The notes under the pieces were generated by a model. The model made no database searches. It saw only the letters and a list, made by a program, of their open reading frames with translations, and was not told where the DNA came from. Shown in pieces: positions 2,914 through 43,249 of a stretch of 62,057 nucleotides of DNA (position 1 is its first letter; each line of letters opens with the position of its first letter). Origin of the DNA: a virus; the IMG/VR virus record IMGVR_UViG_3300011113_000163, positions 1 through 62,057 of that record; one strand, given 5' to 3'. Position numbers and translations under genes: made by a program.

Positions 2914-2924
2914 GGAAGTGTACT

Positions 2925-4070
2925 ATGTATCAACTATATTTTGTCGATAAAGATACTACAATATACGAACGGTTTCCTAACCGTAATACAGGAATAGATG
3001 CGGTTTTAGAACTAACAAAAATTGCATCTGGATCTAAATTAAATGGTGAAATACAAGCCAATACTTACAATAGTCGTATATTAATAGATTTTAGTGCACA
3101 GGTATCTGCATTAACGACTGCTATATCAAATGGTACTATTCCTCCGATTGGAAAGTCTGCTGGATCTGCATCTGTATATCTTAATTTGCATGCTGTAGAT
3201 TCTACAGATTTACCGTTATCATATACATTAAAAGCTTTTCCAGTGTCACAATCATGGGTTAATGGAAACGGTAATTACAGCGACCTCCCAGAGGTACGTA
3301 ACGGAGCTAGTTGGTATTATCGTGATGACTATGATATAGCTACCGCATGGAATACTGCATCCGCTGCTAGTGCTGGAGAGCCTGGGGCAACTATTAGACA
3401 AGGCGGTGGTACATGGATTACTGGGTCTGGTTATGAAGCTAGTCAGTCGTTTAGTTTTCAATCGCCTGATGTTCGCATGGATGTCACGGATATTGTAAGT
3501 AAATGGACTACAAACATTATACCTAACTATGGATTCATTGTTAAACGATCGTATACGGATGAAACATCTAGTGATATTTTAGGTAGTTTAAAATTCTTTT
3601 CTCGTGAAACAAATACTATTTTTGTTCCAAGATTAGAAGTTGCTTGGAACGATGCAAATTTATCGGGTACCGGGTCTGTTACAGAAATTTCCGTAAACGA
3701 AACATATGTACCATATTTTAAGAATTTACGTGATTCGTACAGAGATGCAGATGTTTCGTTGTTTAGAGTAGGAGTTCGACCAGAATATCCGACAGCTAGT
3801 TATATTTCAACAAATTCACATTACTTGAATAATTTTAGACTACCTGCTACTAGTTATTATTCAATTAAGGATACAATTACGGATGAAACGATAATTCCGT
3901 TCGATACTACTGCTACTCAATTGAGTTGTGATACAAACGGAAATTATTTCAAAATAGCTTTTAGTACATTTATGCCAGAACGATATTATAAAATAGTATT
4001 AAAGGCAGTACATAGTACAGGTGATACTCAGATACATGATAATGGATATTATTTTAAAGTAGTTAGATAA
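2925..4070 (+). CDS. Virion protein with DNRLRE-like beta domain
   Basis: A 381-residue protein next to gp6, so probably a baseplate or tail component. The first 230 residues resemble DNRLRE-type surface modules: YERFPNRNTGID near residue 14, a repeated 'sRiLIDFS' strand near 50, then a Trp-containing segment (SQSWVNGNGNY) and VRMDVTDIVSKW near 185. Such modules are beta-sandwiches found in cell-surface and appendage proteins. The C-terminal 150 residues are another beta domain without a recognisable family. AAGGAAG precedes the start, and the stop overlaps the next start (TAATG). The function is inferred from family resemblance and position. Confidence 0.7.
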   Translation: MYQLYFVDKDTTIYERFPNRNTGIDAVLELTKIASGSKLNGEIQANTYNSRILIDFSAQVSALTTAISNGTIPPIGKSAGSASVYLNLHAVDSTDLPLSYTLKAFPVSQSWVNGNGNYSDLPEVRNGASWYYRDDYDIATAWNTASAASAGEPGATIRQGGGTWITGSGYEASQSFSFQSPDVRMDVTDIVSKWTTNIIPNYGFIVKRSYTDETSSDILGSLKFFSRETNTIFVPRLEVAWNDANLSGTGSVTEISVNETYVPYFKNLRDSYRDADVSLFRVGVRPEYPTASYISTNSHYLNNFRLPATSYYSIKDTITDETIIPFDTTATQLSCDTNGNYFKIAFSTFMPERYYKIVLKAVHSTGDTQIHDNGYYFKVVR

Positions 4071-6691
4071 TGCCAACAACAAATAATAATATATACGATA
4101 ATCGTTACACTAATAGACGTAATACATACGAAGAATATCCTCAACCGACAGGTGTATATACGGATGAGCAGATTGCCAATGTACGATACGACGCTTTTGG
4201 TAGGCCGTATTGGATTTCGCCTACAACCCATAACAATCCGTTAAATGAATTACAACGCGATGGGATGAATATATTGTCAGTTAATGTACAAATACCTAAT
4301 ACATATGCTAAATATAAATTAGAAAAAGTATTTCCAAATGTTACTGATGATCGTATTGACGAACTTTTAGATGATGAATGGAACTATTATGGTCCGGATA
4401 TTGTAACCGAGTTAAGAACTCCCGGCGTAACAGGCGAATTTAAAACAGCGTTTGAAATAAATACTCCTATAGATTTTCATGCTACTTATATTCTATACGG
4501 CCCGTCAACTATAGATGCTAGAATAGCCGCTGGTCAGTCTTCTGATGATGTTATTAAAAATACGTTTTGTGTCTTTTTTATTCGAGATTCTATCGCATAT
4601 CCGATTCCTAACTACAAAACGCTGGAAGTGATGTTAGTAGAAAATGGCAAGTCGTATTCCGATATAAAGGAAGCTACTTTACAAGAAATGACCGAGTATG
4701 ATTTTACACTAGACGGTGCGTTTGCGGGCGATCAAACTGTTACATATACGCCTGATCCTGTTGAAGAATTTCAATTTCGTACCCTATTAAATCGTAGTAA
4801 TGAATGGAGCACATTAATTAGATATAAAAGCGGATATCGTCCGACATTGCCGTTCACACGTGATCCAGGTGATTATATTAAACCGTTAGGATATACCGGA
4901 ACAACATCTAATCAGCCTGATGTGTATGTGGCAGAAGATCCGACAGATACTTTCTTTGATACTACTTTTCAGCAACAAACTTATAAAGAACGTTTACGTG
5001 AAAAGTTTGAAGGTAAGATGATTATCTTGAATTGGCCATCGCCATATGCTAGTGGCGAATTGGGTGATGGTACTAATGTAGCCGATAGTTATCAGTTTGG
5101 TTTACGTATGATGATCCATGGATATTGGAAACAAGTAACTGATCCTAACGTGTTAAAATTATATGCTACAATCAATAACTTTGATATATCAGATTTTGAC
5201 GATCCAGGTTCTAGTGGTAATCCTATGTTAGGAACTAATGGATTAATTAATATATTAGTAAATCAACGCGGTATAACTGTTATTAATTATCTTGGTACCG
5301 AGTTTGCTCCAATATGGAATGATTTTCCTCATATCTACGATGTAGATGATGTTGATTTATTGGATTATCAAGAATATTTAGATTACTGGAGCAATGGTAA
5401 TAAAATGTTTGATGTATATTATCTGAATCCGTACGAACCTAAAGGAAGTATAGCATATTATCCGTTTTCTAGATTAGTATTGTTACAAGAACAATTAATC
5501 AATCAGTTTGAAATCGATGCTATACGTCCACAATTATTAACATTATGGCAGTCAGTCGCTACAAAACTTACAAATATTTCTAATATATCTAATTCAATAC
5601 CAGGAAATTTTACACAGTATTTCTTTAACATATATGGAGAGTCTGGTGATATTTTTAAAGTAATGAATGCTCCTAATGGCGATAAATGGAAATTTGTAAA
5701 AAGAAAAAATAACGGCGAATTAAAAGCTCTGGATGATCAGGCTAGCTTCCTCCGTCTTTTAGAAAAAAATAATAATATTCTACGAAAGTTCGATGGTAGT
5801 GAAGAAATGAATATTGTTAACATTTCTAAATGGGGTAAAACAATTGAACAAGATAGACTACGCAATCTTAGTATAGGTAGTTTAGGGCTTAACGGTAATG
5901 ATGATGAAAGTGTCATCAATGGCGGCCTTGGTATATTAGGCGCAGCGGCGGGAACTTTATCCGCGGCTAGTGTAACAACGGTTACAACAACTACACTTGT
6001 ATTAACTTCTTTGGAAGGCGCATTAATTCCTACGTTAGTAACAACTACTGCAACAACTGGAGTGGGTTTAGCGGTAGGTGCTGGTGTAGTTGCGACTGCA
6101 GCATTGTTGTATTTTGGATTACAAGTTATAATGGGCGAAGCTTTAGATGATAAGTATGACTTGCCAAGAAACAAATACATATACAATGGCCCAGGCGGAG
6201 GAGGTAGTGATAGATTAAGAACATTAATGAACGGCTCATATACAGATGCAATGATATTAAATGAACTAGCCGTTACGATATCTCAATTAGAAATAAATTC
6301 TACTTTAGCAGATGAAGCTTTAGTTGCATTACGCCAATCAATCGCAGCATTATCACCGGCAATAAACGAAATAGAAAGTAGAATTAATTCAGCTGAGGGT
6401 ATTGAAGAATTTCAGTTATTACTAGCAGATTTACAGACAATTGACGGTGTGTTAGATAGTTATATAAGTACGATTATACCTATAATACAAGACGTTAAAA
6501 CACAAATGGATTCAGTGGCAATTGTACAAATGCAAAAATATTATGATGCTATTCAATATGCACGTAGGATAGTATATGAACGCGTAGGAATAAATAATAC
6601 ACGTGGAATACAATGGCCCGAAGCTTCTATAGCAGTTATAAACAAATATTTACCAGGTAAGACTTTTGATGACTATTTACCGCAAAGTTAA
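4070..6691 (+). CDS. Large baseplate wedge-region protein (gp7-like by position)
   Basis: This 873-residue protein occupies the place that T4 gp7 has after gp6, but I see no decisive motif. The N-terminal two thirds are mixed alpha/beta and rich in Tyr, Asp and Asn. Residues about 620-690 form a long Ala/Gly/Val/Thr-rich hydrophobic stretch (including TTTTLVLTSLEGALIPTLV) that could be two membrane-like helices or a buried core. The C-terminal 150 residues are predicted helical and end in a VINKYLPGKTFDDYLPQS segment. It is coupled to both neighbours (TAATG at its start, three bases to the next gene). The gp7 assignment is positional. A fibre-attachment protein is an alternative. Confidence 0.6.
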   Translation: MPTTNNNIYDNRYTNRRNTYEEYPQPTGVYTDEQIANVRYDAFGRPYWISPTTHNNPLNELQRDGMNILSVNVQIPNTYAKYKLEKVFPNVTDDRIDELLDDEWNYYGPDIVTELRTPGVTGEFKTAFEINTPIDFHATYILYGPSTIDARIAAGQSSDDVIKNTFCVFFIRDSIAYPIPNYKTLEVMLVENGKSYSDIKEATLQEMTEYDFTLDGAFAGDQTVTYTPDPVEEFQFRTLLNRSNEWSTLIRYKSGYRPTLPFTRDPGDYIKPLGYTGTTSNQPDVYVAEDPTDTFFDTTFQQQTYKERLREKFEGKMIILNWPSPYASGELGDGTNVADSYQFGLRMMIHGYWKQVTDPNVLKLYATINNFDISDFDDPGSSGNPMLGTNGLINILVNQRGITVINYLGTEFAPIWNDFPHIYDVDDVDLLDYQEYLDYWSNGNKMFDVYYLNPYEPKGSIAYYPFSRLVLLQEQLINQFEIDAIRPQLLTLWQSVATKLTNISNISNSIPGNFTQYFFNIYGESGDIFKVMNAPNGDKWKFVKRKNNGELKALDDQASFLRLLEKNNNILRKFDGSEEMNIVNISKWGKTIEQDRLRNLSIGSLGLNGNDDESVINGGLGILGAAAGTLSAASVTTVTTTTLVLTSLEGALIPTLVTTTATTGVGLAVGAGVVATAALLYFGLQVIMGEALDDKYDLPRNKYIYNGPGGGGSDRLRTLMNGSYTDAMILNELAVTISQLEINSTLADEALVALRQSIAALSPAINEIESRINSAEGIEEFQLLLADLQTIDGVLDSYISTIIPIIQDVKTQMDSVAIVQMQKYYDAIQYARRIVYERVGINNTRGIQWPEASIAVINKYLPGKTFDDYLPQS

Positions 6692-6694
6692 GAT

Positions 6695-9600
6695 ATGTTA
6701 GAAAGATTTTCAAATAAAGATTATATACTATCAACAAAAGGATTTGTACGTGGTATAACTTGGAAACAAGAAGATATTGAACAGTTACAACTTAGTACAC
6801 AGACTGTATTAACACAAGAACGTCCGGTAGTTGAATTACATTTATATTCGCCCGGTGGTATGTATATTACCGGAGGTGTTACTACTGCATTTGATTTTGA
6901 CCGCGATAAAATATCTGTTGATTATGCTACATTTTTTAATACCGTTGATATTGAACGTGGATATTATGAAGTAGTATCGAACATATATCGTAATTTGTTA
7001 GGATCTGAAGTCGATCCGTTAATTCAAGTAAAAGAAATATCGGCAGATCGTCGTGAAATTATTGTACGATTAGTACCATTAGATCCGGCACGATTAGCCG
7101 TTAATGGTAATGCAATTCCTGCATACTTAACAGCTAATGATTCGGTATTTGACAAAGATATATTTTTAAATTTTGGTAAAGATCGTTTATTAAAAGTAAT
7201 TAATCAACGTAATTATTCGGAATCAAATACGTTAGAAAATAATACGATTGCTTTTAGATTATATCAACCATTACCAGCTGATATTGTTATCAATGATACT
7301 TTATGGGTTGTAGAATCGTTATCGGATTCGATTACAGACAATGTTAATGTAACTACAGTACCGGACGATCGTGTAGTAAACATATTACGTGGTCCTAATT
7401 TTGAATATGCAGATGATTTGGCTACAACAACTGAAACAGATTTTCAAAACTGGAATTCTTTGTTAGGATCAAATCTTTCTACATCACAGCAAATTATTGA
7501 TAGATATTTTTCTGGATCATTAGGTGGCGTACATTTAAATGTTGATTATACAGCATTTGAAAACTTTGTATTTTATTCTTCCGCATACGAAAGATTGGCT
7601 AATTTTAAATACAAACTTGAATTAATTGAATACTATGACAATCAACTAAATACATTAAACAATGTAGCCTTAGGGTCTGACGATACGGCGTTACAAAATA
7701 ACATTGCATTAACAACTGAACGTAAAGATAACGTTATTGGCGGGTTTGATGGTTTTGAACGTTGGTTATACAATGAACCTACTGCAAGTTTAACGACCCA
7801 TGGGGCATCTGGAAGTTATATTGGAACAGATGGTTATGCTATAACACCATGGCCAAAATATTTATCTGGCAGTAAATATTATTTATATGATACGAACAAT
7901 ACGTTAGCAATAGCTTGGTATGACGGTTTTTCTGCTACTGCGTCATTATATGATGAGCAAAATAATAATGCGTTAGTAAAAACAATACCCGAACATATAC
8001 GTAATGATGCAAATAATAGTGAATATGAACTGTTCATTAATATGATTGGACATCATTTTGATATTTTATATACTTACATCAAAGCTTTAACCGATATATA
8101 TCGGCCTGAAGAAAATCCTAAATTAGGACGTAGTCGTGAAGTATTATATAATGTAGCTGAAAGCTTAGGTTGGAAATTAACTAATGGTAATCAAGCTACT
8201 GCATTATGGAAATATAAATTAGGTACTAATTATGATGGTACATATCAAAGTACCGGTAGTTTATTTAGTAAGTCTAATGAAGATATTAGTACTGAGGTAT
8301 GGCGCCGTATTGTAAATAATTTACCTTACTTATTAAAGACAAAAGGTACTAGTCGTAGCGTTAAAGCTTTGATGAATGCATATGGTATTCCTCAGACATT
8401 GTTATCAATTCGTGAATACGGCGGCCCGTCAACTACAAACGAAACACCGTCATTAATTGAAGATCGTTTTGCGTATGCTGTTAGATTAACAGGCGAAAGC
8501 CAGATATATGCACATATGCATCATGTTACGTCTAGTATCGGAAGACCGTGGGGTATCGAACGCGGAGTTATTCCTATTATAACTCACGAAATACGCTTTA
8601 AGCCTAGCGTTACGCAATCAATGCTATTAATGTCGTATGCTAAAGATGTAGCCGCATCCATATATGTCGATGATGAGTATGTCAATCCATTTTATGTTAG
8701 TAGTTTAAGTGCTAACGGCGAAAGTTTATGGCATGTTATATTGGAACATACAGCATCTTATTCTGGATCTAGTAATTACGGTCGTGTACATTTTATAATG
8801 CCTGATGGTGGTCCGACAACTGTAATCGATCCATTACATGCAATAACTCCATGGACTCCTATTTATGACGGTGATTGGTGGAATTTTAGATTAAACTATA
8901 ATACATCTGGCCGGCATTACAATTCAGGTTCAAATACAGATACTTTATATCAAATTAAAGTACAAAAGAAATCTGATTTTGTTAATGCTAAAGTTGTACA
9001 TGCAGTATCTGCTTCAACTGTTACAGCTACTAGCGGTAGCCATTATCAATTTTGGTGTAGTCCTACTGCATCTTATAATATATTAATTGGCGGTAATAGC
9101 GGTTCTACAAATAATAACGATATTTACGGATTAGATGCATATGTATCTACATCTTTAGGATTAGGTAGTATACCTACCATGTATAAAGGTAATCTTCAAG
9201 AATATCGTGCTTGGTTAGAAACGGTTAATGACACTGCATTTAATGACCATACTATTAATCCTACAAGTTATGTTTCTAGTATTTCGCCTACTAGTAGTTT
9301 TGATACTTTAATTCGTCATTTTACACTAGGTACAGAAACAAAAGCTTATGATTTAAGTTTGACGGGTGTTTCTGTTATTTCTAGTAGTCACCCATTCCGA
9401 GGATTATCTAATTTTGGTAGCGAATCAATGCCGTTTGAAATTACCGGTAGTGTTCGTGGATTTCAAATTCCTTCTAACTTACAACGAGGTAATTTTAATG
9501 TTGTAGAAGAGACGTACTATGTGCCAGGAGTTTCATTAGGCGGTAATAATTTTTATTCACAAAAAATACGTTTTGATGATAATGAGTTAGTATATAATTT

Positions 9601-15203: not shown

Positions 15204-15611
15204 ATGGCATGGCATTCAAAGTCAAATATTCGTGCAAACGCGATTAAATATGGTTATCGTTCAGGATTTGAACATAAAATATCAGAACAATTAGAACAGT
15301 TAGATATCGATCCTAAGTATGAACAAACAGTTGTTAAATATACTATACCAGAACGCCAATCAAAATATACCGTAGATTTTACACTACCTAATGGTATATT
15401 AGTTGAGACAAAAGGCCGATGGATGACAGAAGATCGTAAAAAACATTTACTAGTTAAAGAACAGCATCCGGAATTAGACATACGAATTATATTTCAAAAT
15501 GCAAAATCTAAAATTCGCAAAGGGTCAAAAACTTCTTATGCAGACTTTTGCGATAAGCATGGAATTCTATGGGCAGAAAAAAAGATTCCAGAAAGTTGGC
15601 TAAATACTTGA
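15204..15611 (+). CDS. T7 endonuclease I-type Holliday junction resolvase
   Basis: A 135-residue member of the phage T7 endonuclease I family, which cleaves branched DNA to debranch replicating genomes before packaging. The catalytic set is visible as E23 (SGFEHKI), D58 (YTVDFTLP), E68 and K70 (LVETKGRW). The spacings of 35, 10 and 2 residues are the same as T7 E20, D55, E65 and K67. Length is close to T7 (149). An AAAAGGA site lies before the start and a late element before that. In T4 this job belongs to endonuclease VII (gp49), an unrelated fold, so this would be a functional replacement. It is followed by the primase after a 114-base gap. Confidence 0.9.
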   Translation: MAWHSKSNIRANAIKYGYRSGFEHKISEQLEQLDIDPKYEQTVVKYTIPERQSKYTVDFTLPNGILVETKGRWMTEDRKKHLLVKEQHPELDIRIIFQNAKSKIRKGSKTSYADFCDKHGILWAEKKIPESWLNT

Positions 15612-15725: not shown

Positions 15726-16652
15726 ATGAGTAAGTACTCACTTATTTCTTTGTTAGACTCTGTCTTAGGTAAAGGTAAGACTAATACTAATGATAACATT
15801 GCTTATTGTTGCCCATTCTGTCATACCCAAAAGAAAAAGTTAGAAGTTAATCTTATAACTCAATACTGGCATTGTTGGGTTTGTAATGCATCTGGTAGAA
15901 AGTTAAGCGTACTATTTCGTAAGTTAAATGTACAACGAGATAAGATTGCGCAGTTACTTAAGATAGTTGATGAAACTGAATACAAGCCTACAAAGACAAC
16001 TACAGATACACCCGTTGTAGCATTACCAGATGAATATCGTCCATTATGGATTATCGATAAAACATCACCCGAATATAGAAATGCTATTTACTATCTTAAG
16101 AATCGTGGCATTACTATTAAAGATATTCTTAAGTATCGTATCGGGTATTGCAGAAAAGGACCTTACGCTAAAAAAATTATTATTCCGAGTTATGATGCTA
16201 ATGGAAGTTTAAACTACTTTGTAGCTCGAGCATATTACGATTCGGACTTATTTAAACATAAGAATCCTAAAGTGTCTAAAGATATTGTCGGGTTTGAATT
16301 ACAGATCAATTGGACTATGCCCATTATACTAGTAGAAGGCGCTTTTGACGCAATTGCAATCAAACGTAATGCTATTCCGTTATTCGGTAAAACCATTTCA
16401 AACACGCTAAAAAAACGTATTGTAGAAAAGGGAGTAAAGGACATTTATATATGTTTAGATCTAGATGCTCGTAAGCAAGCGTTAGAAGCTGCTGAGTATT
16501 TTATTAGTAACGGTGTAAATGTATACTTTGTAGACTTAACAGATAAAGATCCTAGTAAATTAGGGTTCTTAAAAATAAAAGAATTGATAGACTTAACACC
16601 GCAGTTAACTGCAAATAGATTAATTGAAGAAAAAATATTATGTTTACTATAG
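15726..16652 (+). CDS. 61: DNA primase, T4 gp61-like (zinc finger plus Toprim)
   Basis: A 308-residue primase that makes RNA primers for lagging-strand synthesis, normally together with a gp41-type helicase (not in this window). An N-terminal CHC2-type zinc ribbon is formed by C29-P-F-C32 and C50-W-V-C53. A Toprim domain carries E204-G (LVEGAFDA) and D245-L-D247 (LDLDARK). Length is near T4 gp61 (342). There is no Shine-Dalgarno before the start, only AT-rich sequence. The last 13 bases overlap the start of the recombination nuclease gene, so the two are probably co-translated. No late element precedes the gene, consistent with early or middle expression. Confidence 0.9.
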   Translation: MSKYSLISLLDSVLGKGKTNTNDNIAYCCPFCHTQKKKLEVNLITQYWHCWVCNASGRKLSVLFRKLNVQRDKIAQLLKIVDETEYKPTKTTTDTPVVALPDEYRPLWIIDKTSPEYRNAIYYLKNRGITIKDILKYRIGYCRKGPYAKKIIIPSYDANGSLNYFVARAYYDSDLFKHKNPKVSKDIVGFELQINWTMPIILVEGAFDAIAIKRNAIPLFGKTISNTLKKRIVEKGVKDIYICLDLDARKQALEAAEYFISNGVNVYFVDLTDKDPSKLGFLKIKELIDLTPQLTANRLIEEKILCLL

Positions 16653-19600
16653 ACATTGGATTAGAGCGTATTGATAGAATTTATCATATCGCTGACGTAC
16701 ATGTACGCAACGTTAAAAGGCATGAAGAATACCGCCAGGTATTTAAAAAGTTATATGCTTACATAAAAAAGACAAAAACAAAGAATAGTGTTATCTACGT
16801 AGCTGGTGATATTGTACATGCTAAAACAGATATGTCTCCAGAATTAGTACATGTAGTATCTGATTTTTTTCAAAACTTAGCAGATATTGCACCTACAATT
16901 ATAATCTGCGGAAATCACGATTGTAATCTTAATAACGCGAATCGTTTAGATGCCATTTCCCCTATTGTTAAGGCCCTTAACCACCCTCAATTACATTATC
17001 TTAAAGACAACGGGATATATTGTATATCGGATGTACACTTTAACGTTATGTCTATTTTTAATAAGCCATCTGAATACATTAAAGCTAAGGATTTTGATGG
17101 AAAGTATAAGATTGCTTTACATCACGGGGCGGTTAATTTAGCACAAACTGATATAGGGATGACCTTAAGTAATACGCATGTTACTAACGAATTGTTTGAA
17201 GGACATGATTTAGTATTGTTAGGTGATATACATAAATTACAATTCTTAGATTCTAAAAAGACGATAGCATATCCAGGTAGTTTAATACAACAAAACTATG
17301 GCGAAGCACTACACCATGGTATTTTAGTATGGGACTTAGCTACTAGTACTTCTGAGTTTGTTGAAATTGTTAACGATCATGGATATTATACATTCGAAAT
17401 CGAAAATGGCGTTATACTTAATCCGTCAAATGATGTGCCTAAAAAGCCAAAGTTAAGATTAAAGGTTAAAGATACTGAAACATCTGTATTAAAAACGATT
17501 GTATCAGATTTACGTAAACAATATAAAGTTCAAGAAATTACAGTGCATAAAGTAAATGCATTAAGTAATTACGATCCTAAGCAAAAAGTTAATTTTGGTA
17601 ATATTAGAGACGTGGAATGGCAAAACAATGCTATTACAGATTATTTAAATGATACATATGCGTTAGATGAAGAGTTATTAGATTGTGTTAGGCATATTAA
17701 TCGTACCGTGCACGGTAAATTACCTGAATCAGAAATAACTAGAAATGCTTTATGGACACCTAAGATGTTTGAATTTAGTAACATGTTTAGTTATGGTAAT
17801 GATAATGTTATTGATTTTTCTACATTGAACGGCTCATATGGATTATTTGCTCCTAATGCTTCCGGGAAATCCACATTGTTAGATGCTTTGGCATTTTGTT
17901 GCTTTGATAGATGTAGTCGTACTACAAAAGCTATACACGTATTGAATAATAAACGTAGTACATTTGAATGTAAATTTCAATTTGAATTAGACGGTAAAGA
18001 TTATTTTATACAACGTACTGGAAAGAAAAATAATAAAGGTCATGTTAAAGTTGATGTAGATTTTTGGTATATAAATGAGTCTGGAGAGGAAATATTACTT
18101 AACGGCGACCAACGAGATACTACAAATAAAATTATACGCCAATATTTAGGCTCATATGAAGATTTTGTGTTAACAGCATTATCATTGCAAAGTAATAATA
18201 CTGGCTTTATTGACATGTCACAACGTGAACGTAAAGAGTTACTAACACAATTTTTGGATATCGACGTATTTGAACAACAGTATCAGATAGCTAATGAAGA
18301 GATTAGAGAAACAGCTGCATTAATACGTGAATATAAACGTACTGATCACAGCACGTCATTATCAGAAGCTAGTCAAACAATAACTAATTTAACAAAGTCG
18401 TTAAAAAGTATTACTAAACAAAAAACTGAGTTAGAATCAATGAAAGATGATTTAACTGAAATAGTAATCAATATGACTAAAGAGTTAAAGACGATTGGTA
18501 CTGGCATTGAAAAACCTGATAATATAAAAGCTAAAATCAATATAAAGCTAAGTCAACTAGATTCGTTAAACGATCAGTCTAACGAAATAACGGAACAATT
18601 AGATCAACTTGAAGATAATATTAATAGTATTGTAACCGAACTTGAAGATTACGATCGCGATGCCTTAGATGCTAAAAAGCAAGAGATATTAAAAAACATT
18701 GATACTCATCGCGATTTAACATCACGTGAAAAGTTATTGGAAATGGATATTGCCCATGCGGAAAAAATGGTTTCTAAATTAGAAAAACATCAATGGGATC
18801 CGAATTGTAAATATTGCATGGCTAATCCATGGTTGCAAGATACTAAAAAGGCTAGTGAACGATTACCGTTATTGCAAGAAGAATATAAAGCTTTACAAGC
18901 GGAGATTGAAATTATATGGCCTCAGTGTGATATGTATGACGTTAACAAAGAGTATGTACATTTAGGCGATTTAGAAAGTAGACATGGTAAATTTATTTTA
19001 AAACAATCTGAATTACAACTAAAAGATCAAAAATTAAAATCAGCAATTCAACATGTTAATTCGGAGTTACAAGAATTAGAACGATTGTTAAATGACTCGT
19101 TACAACATATTGATGACCTTAAATTTAATGAAGAAAAAAACGAAGAAATTTTAGAACATCAACAAGAGATTGCCGATTTAACAAACGAAATAAAATCATT
19201 AGAATCAAATATTCTTCAGATATCTGGAAAGATATTAATGGCAGAACAAGCTAAACAAGATGCAGAAAAGGCAATTGCTAGACTTCATGACTTAGAAATA
19301 CAGTATAAAGGATATGAATATTATTTGTTATCTGTTAAACGTGATGGCGTACCGTATAGATTGATAACAAAGGCTCTTCCACAGATCGAAGCTGAAATAA
19401 ATAATATTCTAGCGCAAATTGTAGACTTTTCTATTTTGTTAGAAACTGATGGTAAGAATATTAATGGTTATATTGTATATGATCAAGATAACTTTTGGCC
19501 ATTAGAATTAACATCGGGTATGGAGAAGTTTGTAGCTTCATTAGCGATACGTACTTCGTTAATTAAAATATCTAGTTTACCTAGACCAAACTTTTTAGCA

Positions 19601-19786
19601 ATTGATGAAGGGTTTGGAGTATTAGATTCTGATAATCTTAATAGCATGTTTGCGTTATTTGATTATCTCAAATCACAGTTTGGTTTTATTATGTGTATAT
19701 CACATATCGATGCTATGCGTGATATTGTAGATAAACTTATAGAAATTAAGAAAGATAGCGGATATTCTAAAATAAGTTATTCCTGA
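16640..19786 (+). CDS. Fused Mre11-Rad50 recombination nuclease (gp47-gp46 fusion)
   Basis: One 1048-residue polypeptide carries both subunits of the Mre11-Rad50 (SbcD-SbcC, T4 gp47-gp46) complex, which resects DNA ends for recombination-dependent replication. The N-terminal metallophosphoesterase has all motifs: D19-V-H21, G56-D57, G91-N-H93-D94, H161-H162-G and G195-D-I-H198. The ATPase half has Walker A A404-PNASGKST, a long coiled coil broken by a zinc hook C723-K-Y-C726, the ABC signature L957-TSGM, Walker B with D989-E990 and a late CISHID switch histidine. T4 encodes these as two proteins (about 340 and 560 residues). The reading frame runs unbroken from start to stop, with no internal stop or overlap. 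It overlaps the primase by 13 bases. Confidence 0.95.
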   Translation: MFTIDIGLERIDRIYHIADVHVRNVKRHEEYRQVFKKLYAYIKKTKTKNSVIYVAGDIVHAKTDMSPELVHVVSDFFQNLADIAPTIIICGNHDCNLNNANRLDAISPIVKALNHPQLHYLKDNGIYCISDVHFNVMSIFNKPSEYIKAKDFDGKYKIALHHGAVNLAQTDIGMTLSNTHVTNELFEGHDLVLLGDIHKLQFLDSKKTIAYPGSLIQQNYGEALHHGILVWDLATSTSEFVEIVNDHGYYTFEIENGVILNPSNDVPKKPKLRLKVKDTETSVLKTIVSDLRKQYKVQEITVHKVNALSNYDPKQKVNFGNIRDVEWQNNAITDYLNDTYALDEELLDCVRHINRTVHGKLPESEITRNALWTPKMFEFSNMFSYGNDNVIDFSTLNGSYGLFAPNASGKSTLLDALAFCCFDRCSRTTKAIHVLNNKRSTFECKFQFELDGKDYFIQRTGKKNNKGHVKVDVDFWYINESGEEILLNGDQRDTTNKIIRQYLGSYEDFVLTALSLQSNNTGFIDMSQRERKELLTQFLDIDVFEQQYQIANEEIRETAALIREYKRTDHSTSLSEASQTITNLTKSLKSITKQKTELESMKDDLTEIVINMTKELKTIGTGIEKPDNIKAKINIKLSQLDSLNDQSNEITEQLDQLEDNINSIVTELEDYDRDALDAKKQEILKNIDTHRDLTSREKLLEMDIAHAEKMVSKLEKHQWDPNCKYCMANPWLQDTKKASERLPLLQEEYKALQAEIEIIWPQCDMYDVNKEYVHLGDLESRHGKFILKQSELQLKDQKLKSAIQHVNSELQELERLLNDSLQHIDDLKFNEEKNEEILEHQQEIADLTNEIKSLESNILQISGKILMAEQAKQDAEKAIARLHDLEIQYKGYEYYLLSVKRDGVPYRLITKALPQIEAEINNILAQIVDFSILLETDGKNINGYIVYDQDNFWPLELTSGMEKFVASLAIRTSLIKISSLPRPNFLAIDEGFGVLDSDNLNSMFALFDYLKSQFGFIMCISHIDAMRDIVDKLIEIKKDSGYSKISYS

Positions 19787-26029: not shown

Positions 26030-27703
26030 ATGAGTTTAAGTAATTGGTTAGTTGAACAAATTGTAACGGAAGCTGCTAACATACAGCGTGTTATAGCAGT
26101 ATATCCAGGACGTTTTCAGCCATTTGGACCTCACCACGCAAAAGCGTTTGCTTGGTTACAAGGAAAGTTTGGTGCTGAAAATACATATATTGTAACTAGT
26201 GATAAAGTTAAACCTCCTAAATCTCCGTTTTCATTTGCCGATAAAAAAAATATTATTACTAATTACGGCATAAAAAATCTTGTACAAACTAAACAACCAT
26301 ATACGCCGACAGAATTGTTAAATCAATTCGATCCGGCAACGACTGCAGTTGTTTTTATGGTAGGTCAAAAGGATATGGAAGAAGATCCTAGATTTGCTAT
26401 GATGCCTAAAAAGAGCGGAGATCCGTCATATTTTCAACCATATGCTACAAATAAAAATAAACTGCAGGGATATGGTAAACATGGATATCTAATTGTAGCT
26501 CCTCATGTATCATTACGAGTTACGGGATATGGAGAAATGTCAGGAACAGAATTACGTACTGCATTAAAAAATGCAACCCCAACCACATTTAAAACAATAA
26601 TGGGTTGGTATAATCCAACTGTATATAATATGATTAAAAAAAACTTAACTGAATCTGTTAATAAAAGAATGTTAATAGAGGGAGGTGCTGGTGGCCATAT
26701 GGCACATCCATTTGATATTCCGTCTGTAAAAACCGGTAAAGACTTAGTAAAAGTATTTGTACAAGCTGCTAACTATTTAGAAAAAGGCCCGGCATCTGTT
26801 AAGATAGACGGTGTTAACGCTAGCATTAGATTGGTTAATGTTGATGGGCGTCGTCAGTTTGTAATGGATAGAGGATCTAGCAAACCGTTAGATGTTAAAG
26901 GCGTAACTAAAGATGATCTTGAAGCACGTTTTGGTGCAGGGCATGGCATGATAGTTACCGGAGGTAAAGTATTAGATATATTTAATGATGCTATACCAAA
27001 TATATCAGCTCAACTTAAAACATTAGGCTTATGGAACAATCCTAACATATTGTTCAATATTGAGTATGTAGCTGGTTCTACCAATGTATTATCTTATAAC
27101 AAAAACTTCTTAGCAATACATGGATTGTTAGAAATTGAACAAGTAACACCTAAGCGTCGTGCTACTAAAGAGATAACTTATAATAAGAAATCCATGCAAG
27201 ATTTATTGAACAATTTAGCCCCGACTGCAAATGAATACGGGTTCGAAGTTTTAGGTTCCGTACCGACTACATTGGACAAATATCCAGATTTTCAAGGAGA
27301 ACTTGCTAAAAAGTATGCCATTACTATTAATGGTAAAAAAGTTTCTAAAACATTAAATCAATGGCTATCAACTGCACAAAACGAACGTGATACAACAGTT
27401 AAATTGGCGGATGGAAAAGCAGTTGGAGCTCAATCAAAACAAATTTTATTGGCATTGTCACAAGGCGAAGATGCTGCTAAAATAGTAGCTGATCCAGACG
27501 ATGTAGAAAAAGTAGTTAACGGCTTTGTTATTTATTTGGCTACAATGGAATTAGGTAATGCAGTGTTAGAAGCATTGAGTTCGCCACTAGGACCAGTTAA
27601 AGAACATGAAGGTATTGTAATTAGAGATCCTAAAATATATGATAGTCCATTTAAAATAACTGGTCGATTCATTGTTAAAGGACTTGAATCACAGTTTAGA
27701 TAG
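26030..27703 (+). CDS. Bifunctional nucleotidylyltransferase / ligase-like enzyme with a capsid-targeting-like N terminus
   Basis: A 557-residue fusion. Residues 20-200 are a cytidylyltransferase-superfamily domain of NMN adenylyltransferase type. The first motif is G27-RFQPF-GPHHAK (a variant of GRFQPFHxGH) and the second is M-SGTELR near residue 178. Residues 240-557 have the motifs of covalent nucleotidyltransferases (ATP-dependent RNA/DNA ligases): motif I K258-IDG, III FNIE345YV, IV E527-GIVIRD, and lysines 542 and 550 at the motif V position. Motifs I and IV are 269 residues apart, more than in T4 RNA ligase 2, so an insertion is likely. The first 14 residues (MSLSNWLVEQIVTE, then A) resemble a T4 capsid-targeting peptide with a gp21-type cut site. 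Further LTE-S (E208) and LIE-G (E217) sites lie between the domains. Substrates are unknown. Confidence 0.8.
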   Translation: MSLSNWLVEQIVTEAANIQRVIAVYPGRFQPFGPHHAKAFAWLQGKFGAENTYIVTSDKVKPPKSPFSFADKKNIITNYGIKNLVQTKQPYTPTELLNQFDPATTAVVFMVGQKDMEEDPRFAMMPKKSGDPSYFQPYATNKNKLQGYGKHGYLIVAPHVSLRVTGYGEMSGTELRTALKNATPTTFKTIMGWYNPTVYNMIKKNLTESVNKRMLIEGGAGGHMAHPFDIPSVKTGKDLVKVFVQAANYLEKGPASVKIDGVNASIRLVNVDGRRQFVMDRGSSKPLDVKGVTKDDLEARFGAGHGMIVTGGKVLDIFNDAIPNISAQLKTLGLWNNPNILFNIEYVAGSTNVLSYNKNFLAIHGLLEIEQVTPKRRATKEITYNKKSMQDLLNNLAPTANEYGFEVLGSVPTTLDKYPDFQGELAKKYAITINGKKVSKTLNQWLSTAQNERDTTVKLADGKAVGAQSKQILLALSQGEDAAKIVADPDDVEKVVNGFVIYLATMELGNAVLEALSSPLGPVKEHEGIVIRDPKIYDSPFKITGRFIVKGLESQFR

Positions 27704-28319: not shown

Positions 28320-28949
28320 ATGAGCAATAAGTTACAAAATTTAAAAGCTACCAAGGAATTGTTAGCTGGAACGCATAGTACTCAAACACGTAAGTCATTT
28401 GGGTATGAAAATAAATCTGATAGCAAACGTGCTATTGGAGATGTTTGGATAGAAAAAGATCCAAAGACGGGCATTGAATATAAAATAGAACAGAAAGACG
28501 GCTTTCGTACTAAAACACCTTTAAACAGTATTTTAAAACAAATTCGTCAAATATTATCTGTTCCGGAAAAATGTCCATGCTGCAATAAAAAAATGCGAGA
28601 TGAAGAAAAGGCATTAAACTTTAAAATGTATTTCAAACGTAAAAAATGTTTTGAATGTGTTATTAAAGAAGAAACTGCAATACGAATGCAAGGTAAAGAA
28701 GCGTGGGAAGAATATTCGCGTAACATAATGTTAGCCAATGCGGAAGCATGGTTGGCAGATGCTGATAAAGAAGTTGAAATATTACGTGAATCGTTAAAAG
28801 TTCAGTTTATTCAAAATGCCGAAGGTGGATTAGAAGAATGGGATCAAACCGCATTTTTAGAAAAATTTGATACAGATTATCAATCGTTAAAAAACAATAT
28901 AATAACAAATTTAAAAGGTGAATATGGCAACACCAAGGAAAGTAACTAA
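28320..28949 (+). CDS. Zinc-ribbon protein of unknown function
   Basis: A 209-residue protein. A four-cysteine zinc-binding site is visible: C-P-C-C near residue 83 and C-F-E-C about 25 residues later. A basic N-terminal region contains THSTQTRKSFGY. The C-terminal half is a long acidic helix rich in Glu and Trp (EAWLADADKEVEILRESL). I considered a small terminase or a late transcription factor, both of which act near gp17 or late promoters, but no specific motif supports either. It overlaps the next gene by 26 bases and starts six bases after the previous stop with no clear Shine-Dalgarno. Confidence 0.65.
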   Translation: MSNKLQNLKATKELLAGTHSTQTRKSFGYENKSDSKRAIGDVWIEKDPKTGIEYKIEQKDGFRTKTPLNSILKQIRQILSVPEKCPCCNKKMRDEEKALNFKMYFKRKKCFECVIKEETAIRMQGKEAWEEYSRNIMLANAEAWLADADKEVEILRESLKVQFIQNAEGGLEEWDQTAFLEKFDTDYQSLKNNIITNLKGEYGNTKESN

Positions 28950-31236: not shown

Positions 31237-32802
31237 ATGTCAAAATCATTAAAAGAAATTATAGCAGAAGAGTATAAAAAGTGTGCAGCTGATCCTGTAC
31301 ATTTTATGCGTAAATACTGCATAATTCAACATCCTACAAAAGGAAAGATGTATTTTAATTTATATCCTTTCCAAGAAGATACTTTACACGACCTACGTGA
31401 TAATAGATATAACATTATTCTTAAGTCACGACAGTTAGGTATTTCTACTTTAACTGCTGGATACGCCCTTTGGGCAATGTTATTTAAAAACGATTACAAT
31501 GTGTTAGTTATTGCTACTACTCAAGACGTTGCTAAAAACTTAGTAACAAAAGTAAGAGTAATGCATGACAATTTACCGGCTTGGTTAAAGGGTAAATCAA
31601 TTGAAGATAATAAATTATCCTTAAGATTTAAAAACGGATCTCAAATCAAAGCTGTTTCTAGTGCAGGTACATCAGGTCGTTCTGAAGCATTGTCATTGTT
31701 AGTAATCGACGAAGCTGCATTTATTAAAGGCATTGATGAAATATGGACATCAGCTCAGCAAACATTGGCAACTGGTGGAGGTGCTATCATATTATCAACA
31801 CCTAACGGTACCGGTAATTTATTTCATAAAATATGGGTAGATGCAGAGGCGGGTGGACAGTTCAATCCAATTAAGTTGCACTGGACAGTACATCCAGATC
31901 GTGATGAAACATGGAGAGAAGAACAAACGAGATTGCTAGGAGATAAAGAAGCAGCACAAGAATGTGATTGTGACTTTATATCATCCGGACATACAGTAGT
32001 TGACGGTCCTGTTATTCAATGGTATGAGCAGACATATGTAAAAGATCCTATCGAAAAACGAGGATTTGATAGTAATTATTGGATATGGGACTATCCGGAT
32101 TATACTAAAAGTTATGTAGTAGTTGCTGACGTTGCTCGAGGCGATGGTGCAGATTATTCCGCATTTCATGTGTTAGAAATTGAAACTATGACACAAGTGG
32201 CAGAGTATCGCGGAAAAATAGGAACTACAGAATACGGTAATATGCTTGTATCTGTTGCTACTGATTATAACAATGCATTGCTTGTAATTGAAAATGCAAA
32301 TATAGGCTGGGCTGTTATACAAATAGCTATTGACCGTAACTATGAAAATTTATATTACTCATATCGCCAAGATGCGTATGTAGATGAAGATGTACATTTA
32401 TCTAAAGGATATGATTTAAAATCTAAATCAGATAAAGTTCCTGGATTTTCAACTACGTCAAAGACAAGACCTCTAATGATTTCTAAATTAGAAACTTATT
32501 TTAGAGAGAAAGGTCCTATTGTAAAAAGTAGAAGATTAACTGATGAATTATATGTATTTATCTGGAACGGTAGTAGGGCTGAAGCACAACGTGGTTATAA
32601 TGATGATTTGGTAATGTCATTTGCAATTGCATTATGGGTTAGAGATACAGCATTACGTTTACGCCAACAAGGAATAGATTTATCTAGAAAATCTTTAGGT
32701 CATTTTGGTAAAGTTAATCCTAGTATTTATTCATCTAAAAATTCATCTAATGGATCATGGGACTGGAACGGAGATAGTAACGGTCTTAAATGGTTATTAT
32801 GA
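31237..32802 (+). CDS. 17: Terminase large subunit gp17
   Basis: The DNA-packaging motor, an ATPase plus headful nuclease that docks on the portal. Of its 521 residues (T4: 610), the N-terminal ATPase has a Walker A variant K63-SRQLGIST, as in T4 gp17 (SRQLGKTT), and Walker B LLVID158E159. The C-terminal RNase H-like nuclease has D298 (VVVADVARGDG) and the late acidic pair D456-D457 (YNDDLVMSFA). The end is Ser/Asn/Gly-rich. A small terminase (gp16) is not recognisable upstream. The gene is followed by a late element and the portal gene 22 bases later. In T4, gp18 and gp19 lie between 17 and 20. Here they have moved elsewhere. Confidence 0.95.
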   Translation: MSKSLKEIIAEEYKKCAADPVHFMRKYCIIQHPTKGKMYFNLYPFQEDTLHDLRDNRYNIILKSRQLGISTLTAGYALWAMLFKNDYNVLVIATTQDVAKNLVTKVRVMHDNLPAWLKGKSIEDNKLSLRFKNGSQIKAVSSAGTSGRSEALSLLVIDEAAFIKGIDEIWTSAQQTLATGGGAIILSTPNGTGNLFHKIWVDAEAGGQFNPIKLHWTVHPDRDETWREEQTRLLGDKEAAQECDCDFISSGHTVVDGPVIQWYEQTYVKDPIEKRGFDSNYWIWDYPDYTKSYVVVADVARGDGADYSAFHVLEIETMTQVAEYRGKIGTTEYGNMLVSVATDYNNALLVIENANIGWAVIQIAIDRNYENLYYSYRQDAYVDEDVHLSKGYDLKSKSDKVPGFSTTSKTRPLMISKLETYFREKGPIVKSRRLTDELYVFIWNGSRAEAQRGYNDDLVMSFAIALWVRDTALRLRQQGIDLSRKSLGHFGKVNPSIYSSKNSSNGSWDWNGDSNGLKWLL

Positions 32803-37747: not shown

Positions 37748-38353
37748 ATGTCTAAACAATTAATTGTCGATTATAGTTTATTTGAAGTATCGCCTCAGGC
37801 TATTAACGAATCATTAGCTAACAATAATGGTAAATTAGTCGTTACAGGCGTTCTTCAAAGAGCAGATGCACGTAACCAAAACGGTCGTGTATATCCAATG
37901 GAAACATTAATGCGTGAAGCAAAAAAATATCAATCAACATATATTGCTGAGCGCAGGGCGTTAGGAGAATTAGACCATCCAGATAGCTCAGTGGTTAATT
38001 TAAATAACGTATCTCATAACATTTTATCTATGGGATGGAACGGCAATGATTTAGTAGGTACTGTTGAAGTATTACCGACACCGTCTGGTAACATTTTAAA
38101 AGCGTTGTTTCAATCGGGAATTAAATTAGGTATTAGTTCACGTGGTTTAGGTTCTGTAAAAGAAGTTATGCGCGAAGGAAATACTGCAATGGAAGTTCAA
38201 CCCGACTTTGAGTTGATTGCATTTGATTTTGTAAGTAATCCTTCGACCCATGGGGCATTCCTTTCACCTGTTAACGAATCTGTTAATAAAAATACATCTA
38301 ACAAATACGGAAATATCGAACGTATTATTTCCGATATAATTATGGAGTTCTAA
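37748..38353 (+). CDS. 21: Prohead maturation protease gp21
   Basis: T4 gp21-type serine protease (201 residues, T4: 212), which cuts scaffold, capsid and core proteins after (L/I)xE during head maturation. The active-site segments are GELDH77P and GIS130S131RG, matching the His and Ser of the herpesvirus-like assemblin fold. A third conserved segment is FELIAFDFVSNPSTHGAF. I start it at 37748 (ATG after AGGATAATAAA). An upstream extension lacks protease character. AINE-S (E21) and PVNE-S (E177) flank the protease core and are likely self-cleavage sites, as in T4. Confidence 0.93.
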   Translation: MSKQLIVDYSLFEVSPQAINESLANNNGKLVVTGVLQRADARNQNGRVYPMETLMREAKKYQSTYIAERRALGELDHPDSSVVNLNNVSHNILSMGWNGNDLVGTVEVLPTPSGNILKALFQSGIKLGISSRGLGSVKEVMREGNTAMEVQPDFELIAFDFVSNPSTHGAFLSPVNESVNKNTSNKYGNIERIISDIIMEF

Positions 38354-40753: not shown

Positions 40754-42472
40754 ATGAATTTAAATTCTTTGTTACCTCATGATGCTCAAGCAAATCAAAA
40801 TGCAGTATCTATCCAACTTGAAAAGAAGTGGGCACGTACTGGTCTTTTGGAAGGCTTAAGCAATGAGGTTGAGCGCAAGGGCATGGCTGTTCTTTTAGAG
40901 AACCAAGCTAAGCAACTTGTAACTGAAGCTAACTCTACTGGTACTGATTCAAATGCTGAACAGTGGGCTGGTGTAGCTTTACCATTAGTACGTCGTATCT
41001 TTGCTGAAATTGCTGCAAAAGATTTCGTTAGTGTACAACCAATGAACCTACCATCGGGTCTTGTATTCTATTTGGATTTCAAATATGGTACTGCTCAAGG
41101 TATTCAACGCGGTGGTTCTGCATCTGGTAACGACTTTTTAACTGGTCAAGGACGTAACTCTCAAGCTGACTCTGTATTCGGTATCACCGATTCAGATCGT
41201 GGTGGTTCTGCTCCTAGCGAAGGTCTTTACGGTGCTGGACGTTTTGGTTATTCTGTTAACAACGTAACTGCATCATTAGGTCAATTAGGTGCTACTGCAG
41301 CAACTCAAGCACAAACTGGTTCTGTAGCAGTTGGTACTGGTGTATTCACTAGTGGTACTGGTTTAACACAAACACAGTTTGATTGGTTTACTAACTTCAA
41401 TGCAGAATTTTCTGCTTCTGTAGTTGCTAACGGTCTATCTGGATTTGTAGTATTATCTGTTCCGACAGCATCACTTTCAGGCTTTGATTCAAAAGGTATT
41501 CGCGGATTTAACGTTCAGGCTACTAACATCACTGGATTCTATCCTGAATTTACCCGTTTATCACCGACTAAGAGTCATATCCAATTCTTAGTAGACCCTG
41601 CAGTTGACTTTAATGCTCCAGTAGTAGTTTATCATAAGCAACCGCTTGATAACAGCCGTGGTGATTTTGAAGATCCAACAGCTATTGGAAACAATACAAA
41701 CTCAAGCACAAACTTAGCTATTCCAGAAATTAACTTAGAACTTCGTTCTGAAGCAATCGTTGCTAAGACACGTAAGTTAAAAGCTATTTGGTCTCCTGAG
41801 TTTGCTCAAGACTTAAATGCTTACCACTCAATTGATGCTGAAGCAGAATTGACTAGCATGTTGTCTGAGTATATTTCACAAGAAATTGATCTTGAGATTT
41901 TAGATATGTTGATCCAAAACGCTCAAACAACTGAGTATTGGTCAGCTCAAATCGGTTATGTATATGATTCTGCTACTAGCGCATTTGTAAATGCCGCTAC
42001 TGCAGGTCAAGCATATAACCAAGGTACTTGGTTCCAAACTTTAGGAACTAAAATCCAAAAAGTATCTAACAAAATTCATCAGTTAACTATGCGCGGTGGA
42101 GCGAACTTCTTAGTATGTTCTCCAACTGTAGCAACTATCCTTGAGTCTATCCCAGGATATGCTGCTGATACTGACGGTAACAAGATGAACTTTGCAATGG
42201 GTGTACAAAAAGTAGGTGCTATTAACAACCGTTATCAAGTATATAAGAATCCTTATATGACTGAAAACACTATCCTTTTAGGATACCGTGGATCTCAGTT
42301 CCTTGAAACTGGTGCTGTTTATGCTCCATATGTTCCATTGATGATGACTCCACTTGTTTATGACCCAACTAACTTCACTCCACGTAAGGGTGTAATGACT
42401 CGTTACGCTAAGAAGATGGTTCGTCCTGAATTCTATGGTAAGATCTGGGTTGGTGGATTAAATCAACTTTAA
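40754..42472 (+). CDS. 23: Major capsid protein gp23
   Basis: HK97-fold major capsid protein (572 residues, T4: 521). The most diagnostic block is LVRRIFAEIAAKDFVSVQPM then NLPSGLVFYLDFKYG (residues about 76-115), the same arrangement as in T4 and cyanophage gp23. The central part (150-300) is variable. The C-terminal half has conserved LELRSEAIVAKTRKLKAIW and FTPRKGVMTRYAKKMVRP segments. Processing by gp21 probably occurs after LVTE58, before ANSTGTDSNAEQW, close to the T4 cut after residue 65. Codon use here is smoother than in the neighbours (more GGT, CGT, AAC), as expected for a very highly expressed gene. No second vertex gene (gp24) is seen. Confidence 0.96.
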   Translation: MNLNSLLPHDAQANQNAVSIQLEKKWARTGLLEGLSNEVERKGMAVLLENQAKQLVTEANSTGTDSNAEQWAGVALPLVRRIFAEIAAKDFVSVQPMNLPSGLVFYLDFKYGTAQGIQRGGSASGNDFLTGQGRNSQADSVFGITDSDRGGSAPSEGLYGAGRFGYSVNNVTASLGQLGATAATQAQTGSVAVGTGVFTSGTGLTQTQFDWFTNFNAEFSASVVANGLSGFVVLSVPTASLSGFDSKGIRGFNVQATNITGFYPEFTRLSPTKSHIQFLVDPAVDFNAPVVVYHKQPLDNSRGDFEDPTAIGNNTNSSTNLAIPEINLELRSEAIVAKTRKLKAIWSPEFAQDLNAYHSIDAEAELTSMLSEYISQEIDLEILDMLIQNAQTTEYWSAQIGYVYDSATSAFVNAATAGQAYNQGTWFQTLGTKIQKVSNKIHQLTMRGGANFLVCSPTVATILESIPGYAADTDGNKMNFAMGVQKVGAINNRYQVYKNPYMTENTILLGYRGSQFLETGAVYAPYVPLMMTPLVYDPTNFTPRKGVMTRYAKKMVRPEFYGKIWVGGLNQL

Positions 42473-42568: not shown

Positions 42569-43249
42569 ATGGAACAAGCTACTAAGTTATCAAATTTCGA
42601 TAAACGCAAACCGAAGAATCCAATCAAGTTTGCTATTGAATTAAATGAAGAACAAAAACAGGCTAAGGCGTTAATATATGACAATCCAGTTGTATTGTTA
42701 AAAGGCCAGGCTGGTTCGGGTAAAACATTGGCAGCTTGTCAGTGTGCAATAGACATGTTCTTTAAACGCGAAATAGAAAAAATTGTAATTACGAGGCCTA
42801 CAGTATCTAAAGAAGAGATTGGATTCTTGCCAGGAGATCTTAAAGAAAAAATGGATCCATGGTTAGCTCCTATTTATTCTAATTTATATCTTTTATACAA
42901 TCGTGAGAAGATCGATAAAATGGTCGCAAATGGAGAAATTGAAATTGTACCATTTGCGTTTATGCGTGGTAGAACATTTCCTAATACATTTGTTATTGTA
43001 GATGAATGTCAAAATATTACACATGGACAGACTGAAATGATGTTAGGTAGATTGGGCCGAGGTGGTAAAATGGTTTTCTGTGGAGATATTAGTCAAACGG
43101 ACTTAAAAAATAAAAAAGATTCTGGTATTAGCTTCTTTGCACGATTGGAAGAAAATGTAAAAGGTGTTAAAATACATGTTCTTAAGACCAATCATCGCCA
43201 CGAAATTGTTGAGCCAATTCTTAAAATTTACAGTGAATATAGAGACTAA
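42569..43249 (+). CDS. phoH: PhoH-like P-loop NTPase
   Basis: A 226-residue PhoH-family ATPase, common in marine and freshwater phages and related to the N-terminal half of RNA/DNA helicases. Walker A is G46-QAGSGKT. A conserved ITRPTVSKEEIGFLPGD segment follows near residue 72. Walker B is IVD145ECQN, and a sensor-type FCGDISQTDL lies near 170. The physiological role in phage infection is unresolved, and an RNA-related function is the current view for bacterial relatives. It stands alone between the capsid terminator and the second fibre locus, with its own late element. Confidence 0.92.
   Translation: MEQATKLSNFDKRKPKNPIKFAIELNEEQKQAKALIYDNPVVLLKGQAGSGKTLAACQCAIDMFFKREIEKIVITRPTVSKEEIGFLPGDLKEKMDPWLAPIYSNLYLLYNREKIDKMVANGEIEIVPFAFMRGRTFPNTFVIVDECQNITHGQTEMMLGRLGRGGKMVFCGDISQTDLKNKKDSGISFFARLEENVKGVKIHVLKTNHRHEIVEPILKIYSEYRD

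Follow-up and report, generated by a model that had tools for sequence, protein, structure and literature searches.

Why should a phage place a nucleotidylyltransferase (NT) and a ligase-like domain in a single late protein, and what would such a protein do? In the known phage systems, NAD synthesis and RNA ligation reside in separate proteins (PMC9503650, PMC7824862), as the first-pass annotation of this locus had also stated. In the window, by which we mean the whole 62,057-nucleotide viral stretch analysed here, one ORF carries both domains and the two-domain observation made in that annotation is confirmed, with the motifs lying where it had placed them (GRFQPFGPHH at residues 27–36, SGTELR at 171–176, K258-IDG, NIE345, E527-GIVIRD and K542). 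The exception is K550, which had been proposed as a further ligase lysine; it is not conserved and is R or G in relatives. Coordinates of these and other features are collected in Table 1.

The two-domain arrangement lies far beyond chance, since 35 relatives were found with the first query in a scan of viral contigs, and ligase-domain profiles then gave at least 490 and at least 578 confirmed stretches. The latter two scans correspond to two deep subfamilies, N (that of the window) and D, and their totals should not be added up, since some stretches may be in both. At the sensitivity used, the ligase domain was found in 3 of 50,697 phage records, namely Microcystis phage Mel-JY01, the only cultured phage with the pairing among these records, and the uncultured LR756500 and LR756508. 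A scan of cellular genomes gave two loci, one on a 4.3-kb contig and the other on a 410-kb contig that is probably phage, as the stretch examined contains Peptidase_S77; a scan of plasmids gave no match. No report of an NT-ligase fusion was found with the literature searches made, most subscription papers lying outside their reach. As far as these searches reach, the family is widespread and nearly undescribed. The fusion had been called unusual, but it is not peculiar to the phage of the window and belongs to a large, recurrent family. In one relative (L029, 5959–7830), a stop near 7162 splits the NT-ligase frame, reflecting either a sequencing error or a split gene.

The window derives from a T4-like, contractile-tailed phage, with genes for baseplate wedge, terminase, portal, major head protein, head-tail adaptor, tail sheath and hub, and the fusion gene lies within this late head/tail module, in agreement with its earlier description as a late gene. 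Across the family, the fusion gene is usually followed closely by a zinc-finger gene and the terminase. Values of dN/dS between 0.02 and 0.22 in the NT and ligase domains alike indicate purifying selection on both. Single-sequence searches of Pfam and PHROGs with the window protein gave only weak matches, to PF01467 (CTP_transf_like) and to phrog_395/3041, and the full-length protein used alone gave no credible match in the PDB. Promoter and terminator scans near the fusion gene gave nothing above shuffled sequences, and no tRNA genes were found in the window.

Other ORFs of the window and its relatives deserve mention. Inside the structural gene module are a T7-like endonuclease I (15204–15611), a DnaG-type primase-like ORF (15726–16652) and PhoH (42569–43249). 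A 1048-residue ORF (16640–19786) contains a calcineurin-like phosphoesterase (residues 13–199) followed by SMC/AAA_23 ATPase parts (380–1040), and looks like a fusion of T4 gp47 and gp46 (SbcD-SbcC). In two relatives (L069, 4124–8344, and L097, 6646–8699), homing-endonuclease-like ORFs seem to break up the ligase and terminase genes.

Table 1. Features of the fusion gene and its surroundings in the window (a slash marks a candidate cleavage site)
Feature	Coordinates	Strand	Basis or remark
NT-ligase fusion gene	26030..27703	+	ATG start, 557 aa, single ORF
N-terminal 14 residues MSLSNWLVEQIVTE, candidate capsid-targeting peptide, cleavage after E14 (VTE/A)	26030..26071	+	inferred
HIGH-superfamily nucleotidylyltransferase domain, NadM-NMNAT-like, residues 20–207	26087..26650	+	family profile
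GPHH, GxHH variant of HxGH motif	26126..26137	+	last His 117/117
SGTELR (SxTxxR motif)	26540..26557	+	R176 in 122/122 unique NT domains
GGAGGHMAHPFD, family signature before motif I, H223 and H226 invariant	26681..26716	+	alignment of relatives
Ligase motif I, K258-IDGVN	26801..26818	+	K, D, G 168/168
Motif III/IIIa, E345...N352...Y356, Rnl1-like	27062..27097	+	E345 168/168
Motif IV, E527-G-x-V	27608..27619	+	E, G 167/167; overlaps PF09414 match
Motif V, K542-ITGRF	27653..27670	+	K, T, G, F 167/167
CxxC zinc-finger-like protein	28320..28949	+	recurrent downstream neighbour, within 5 kb in 125 of the 152 loci whose downstream sequence reaches 2.9 kb or more
Large terminase	31237..32802	+	at most 5 kb downstream in 113 of the same 152 loci, a count limited by locus length
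T4 gp21-type prohead protease (Peptidase_S77)	37823..38281	+	E 9.9e-28
VTE/A candidate maturation site, major head protein residues 56–59	40919..40930	+	sequence likeness

The two domains occur in both orders, with 95 complete ORFs of the NT-ligase type and 25 of the ligase-NT type, whilst in a few cases the NT is a separate gene, almost always adjacent, and 33 without a detected NT form one clade, mostly of 346-residue proteins (a few loci were counted twice, and NT presence was scored by profiles, as a strict NT-motif regex undercounted fusions). The stand-alone ligase clade includes several incomplete records without NT, and some of its genomes have an NT elsewhere. An 82-row tree, built by a quick method and with some long branches, contains at least 10 changes of architecture, the ligase-NT order having been gained or lost at least 3 times on well-supported branches. 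These repeated changes of order, together with the adjacency of the separate genes, provide strong evidence that the NT and the ligase are functionally coupled. Further domains are fused in some relatives, including ParB_N in L037 (2575–5331), an AAA_33/zeta-like kinase in L269 (1547–5281) and SET in L065 (3183–6071).

The reading we prefer, tentatively and with slightly less than even confidence, is that of a head-packaged two-enzyme protein that would form a ligase-AMP and seal or modify nucleic-acid ends, coupled to an NT that would make NAD or a related dinucleotide close by. The NT product would supply the AMP donor (or recycled NMN) beside the ligase domain; counting against this reading, a NadV-like source of NMN was detected in only one of the nine records searched, and the stand-alone ligase clade has several (incomplete) records in which no NT is seen. 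A head-packaged and injected ligase run on NAD+, with its own NMN adenylyltransferase recycling the released NMN to NAD+, appears distinctly unlikely. To our knowledge, an RNA ligase that depends on NAD+ would be a novelty, and none was found by phrase search of the literature within reach.

The two domains could instead be linked but independent counter-defences, with the NT rebuilding NAD+ after the action of host NADases, an ATP-using ligase repairing cleaved tRNA and no substrate passing between them. Phages have separate NadM, NadR or NadV enzymes and RNA ligases for such ends (PMC9503650, PMC7824862), and the record that contains L097 (G008) has a stand-alone ligase, separate NT genes, a NAPRTase and other RNA ligases. 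We regard this arrangement as somewhat unlikely for the fusion, however, as its repeated re-arrangement in both orders suggests a tighter coupling and NAPRTase is absent from 8 of the 9 records searched.

The second domain (residues ~215–557) is assigned to no Pfam family, and its proposed place in the ligase superfamily is borne out by the invariance of its motifs, by matches of PF09414 and PF01653 to motif I in relatives, and by alignments to Rnl and LigA that keep the motif register. Among 168 unique ligase domains, K258, D260, G261 and E345 are invariant, as are E527 and K542 apart from one gap; residues conserved at 97% or above include these six as well as G218, G219, G222, H223, H226, P227, N352, Y356, H364, G528, T544, G545 and F547. 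PF09414 (RNA_ligase) is the Pfam family touched by most members (8 of 27, best E 0.003) and six-frame searches placed it on motif I in the ligase ORFs of about ten relatives; the window domain itself scores 13.5 bits, below the gathering score of 27. PF01653 (NAD-dependent ligase) matches at motif I in three relatives, over profile positions 24–76 only.

In profile-profile comparisons, subfamily D scored 41 against LigA with a probability of 49–53%, compared with 29% for the best control pair (Rnl1-like against Rnl2), 17% for Rnl1-like against LigA; decoys scored no higher than 30. When Rnl1-like and Rnl2 profiles were run against 5,574 ORFs, the top scorer was a family member each time, with weak E values (0.03 and 0.8), and the matches to family members fell on motifs IV–V or motif I. 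A T4 DNA-ligase profile did not favour family members among the ORFs searched, and the ligase-domain profiles A4 and A5 drew only weak, spurious matches from the PDB. As regards the AMP donor, motif IV is RNA/ATP-ligase-like, whilst LigA gives the highest score for the region of motif I. On this motif and profile evidence, the second domain is a member of the covalent nucleotidyltransferase superfamily that fits the definition of no named family.

According to the preferred two-enzyme reading, K258 would be adenylylated by ATP or NAD+. The resulting enzyme-AMP would activate a 5'-phosphate end and seal or block nucleic acid, most likely RNA and possibly DNA. No OB or other C-terminal domain was found behind motif V, the protein stopping 15 residues past K542, which leaves the distinction between ligation and adenylylation uncertain. 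The covalent nucleotidyltransferase superfamily also includes capping enzymes, and the domain might adenylylate or cap a target (a protein, an RNA 5' end, or a DNA end during packaging) rather than join strands. Such a role would suit the early end of the protein and the synteny with terminase, but is improbable given that the domain is closest in sequence to RNA ligases and LigA.

The first domain had been described as NMN-adenylyltransferase-like, and profile searches with the domain family agree. An alignment of 17 NT members has the NMN adenylyltransferase MJ0541 as its top match in the PDB (1f9a, E 9.7e-9), with NadM-Nudix (2qjt) at 1e-8, and the NCBIfam nicotinamide-nucleotide adenylyltransferase model matches 14 of the 17. 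The window NT itself gave no match in the NCBIfam search and reaches 13.7 bits against PF01467, below the cut-off of 21, which several relatives exceed. Judged by these profiles, the NT family is closest to the NadM-type NMN adenylyltransferases, and the domain would move AMP from ATP onto an NMN-like phosphate to produce NAD+ or a related AMP-pp-X.

The altered GPHH motif had cast doubt on the activity of this domain. The first His of HxGH is indeed lost, but the motif has not decayed: 61 of 122 unique NT domains have HxGH and 44 have GxHH, the last His is found in all 117 without a gap at this position (5 gaps) and the SxTxxR Arg in all 122, so that GPHH is a stable subfamily variant, one under purifying selection. 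That the NT of the GxHH lineage, including the window, performs no catalysis and serves instead to bind a nucleotide or to regulate, leaving the ligase to work alone, would fit the lost His and the window's poor NCBIfam and PF01467 results, but is hardly probable in the face of the invariant His and Arg, the low dN/dS of the NT and the fixation of GxHH in 44 unique domains.

The further suggestion that the protein may be packaged has some evidence in its favour. T4 capsid-targeting sequences (CTS) are N-terminal peptides of ~10 residues carried by internal proteins (PMC9958956). The candidate peptide of the window protein ends in QIVTE/A, close to QLVTE/A of its major head protein, and the window encodes a Peptidase_S77. 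Many family members have a CTS-like start, a loose pattern being present in 32 of 106 unique N-termini against 21 of 757 others, although this pattern was picked after inspection and the members are mutually related, with kinship uncorrected; an earlier loose N-terminal regex hardly discriminates (50% against 36%). In L281, 13 of 29 ORFs, including the ligase, match a CTS pattern that was designed on the same sequences it scores, against 0.65% of 1,857 other ORFs, and in the T4 pieces searched this pattern picks out exactly IpII and IpIII. Against packaging, the sharing of N-termini within loci does not reach significance when all loci are taken together (4 of 98, with 4.9 expected).

The fusion protein may travel in the virus head, as its N-terminus and gene neighbourhood suggest. 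For some family members at least, the N-terminal peptide would direct entry into the prohead. The gp21-type protease would then remove this peptide, and the protein would be injected with the genome and repair damage from host defences. Taken as a whole, the first-pass interpretation is partly supported.

Two loci warrant separate comment. The shared N-terminus in L069, considered as a sign of packaging, is explained by the homing-endonuclease-like insertion in the ligase gene. L281 sits in the 410-kb contig, which is filed under a Firmicutes MAG (RUG343); its 13 ORFs with a T4-CTS-like N-terminus form a run (1447–9574) near a prohead protease (Peptidase_S77), and a separate GRFQPF NT gene is located at 320–1423.

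The window leads to a large phage enzyme family in which NMN-adenylyltransferase-like and ligase domains are coupled in both orders. Cultured phages hardly ever carry it, and annotation of its members goes no further than 'cytidylyltransferase'. If the proposed function is correct, NAD supply and nucleic-acid repair would be joined in one injected protein, with a bearing on phage resistance to NAD-depleting and RNA-cutting defences, and the family may provide a new ligase for laboratory use.

Compared with known systems, the NT family shares with NadM-type NMN adenylyltransferases (MJ0541/1f9a; NadM-Nudix 2qjt) the GRFQPxHxGH start, the SPFxFxxK region and SxTxxR, whereas the window lineage has GxHH instead of HxGH, the window sequence itself falls under curated cut-offs and, unlike in NadM-Nudix, the partner is a ligase-like domain and not a Nudix domain. 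The second domain resembles the phage RNA ligases Rnl1 and Rnl2 (PF09414; T4 RnlA, RnlB) in KxDG, the E...N..Y of motif III/IIIa, EGxV and the motif V lysine, but differs from them in its score below the Pfam cut-off, its GGxxGHMxHPFD signature, the ~180 residues from motif III to IV, the lack of a C-terminal domain and the fused NT. LigA (NAD+-dependent DNA ligase, PF01653) gives the best profile-profile score around motif I and offers a possible NAD+ link through the NMNAT-like domain; in contrast, its NAD-binding domain Ia is not recognised in the phage protein, the profile alignment beginning after Ia, motif IV of the phage domain is EG rather than DG, and nothing resembling OB, HhH or BRCT follows motif V. 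Finally, whereas the cargo would here be an enzyme of another fold, its packaging being a prediction, the family resembles the T4 internal head proteins (IpII, IpIII and Alt) in its candidate N-terminal peptide ending in x-E, its place in the late module and the accompanying gp21-type protease.
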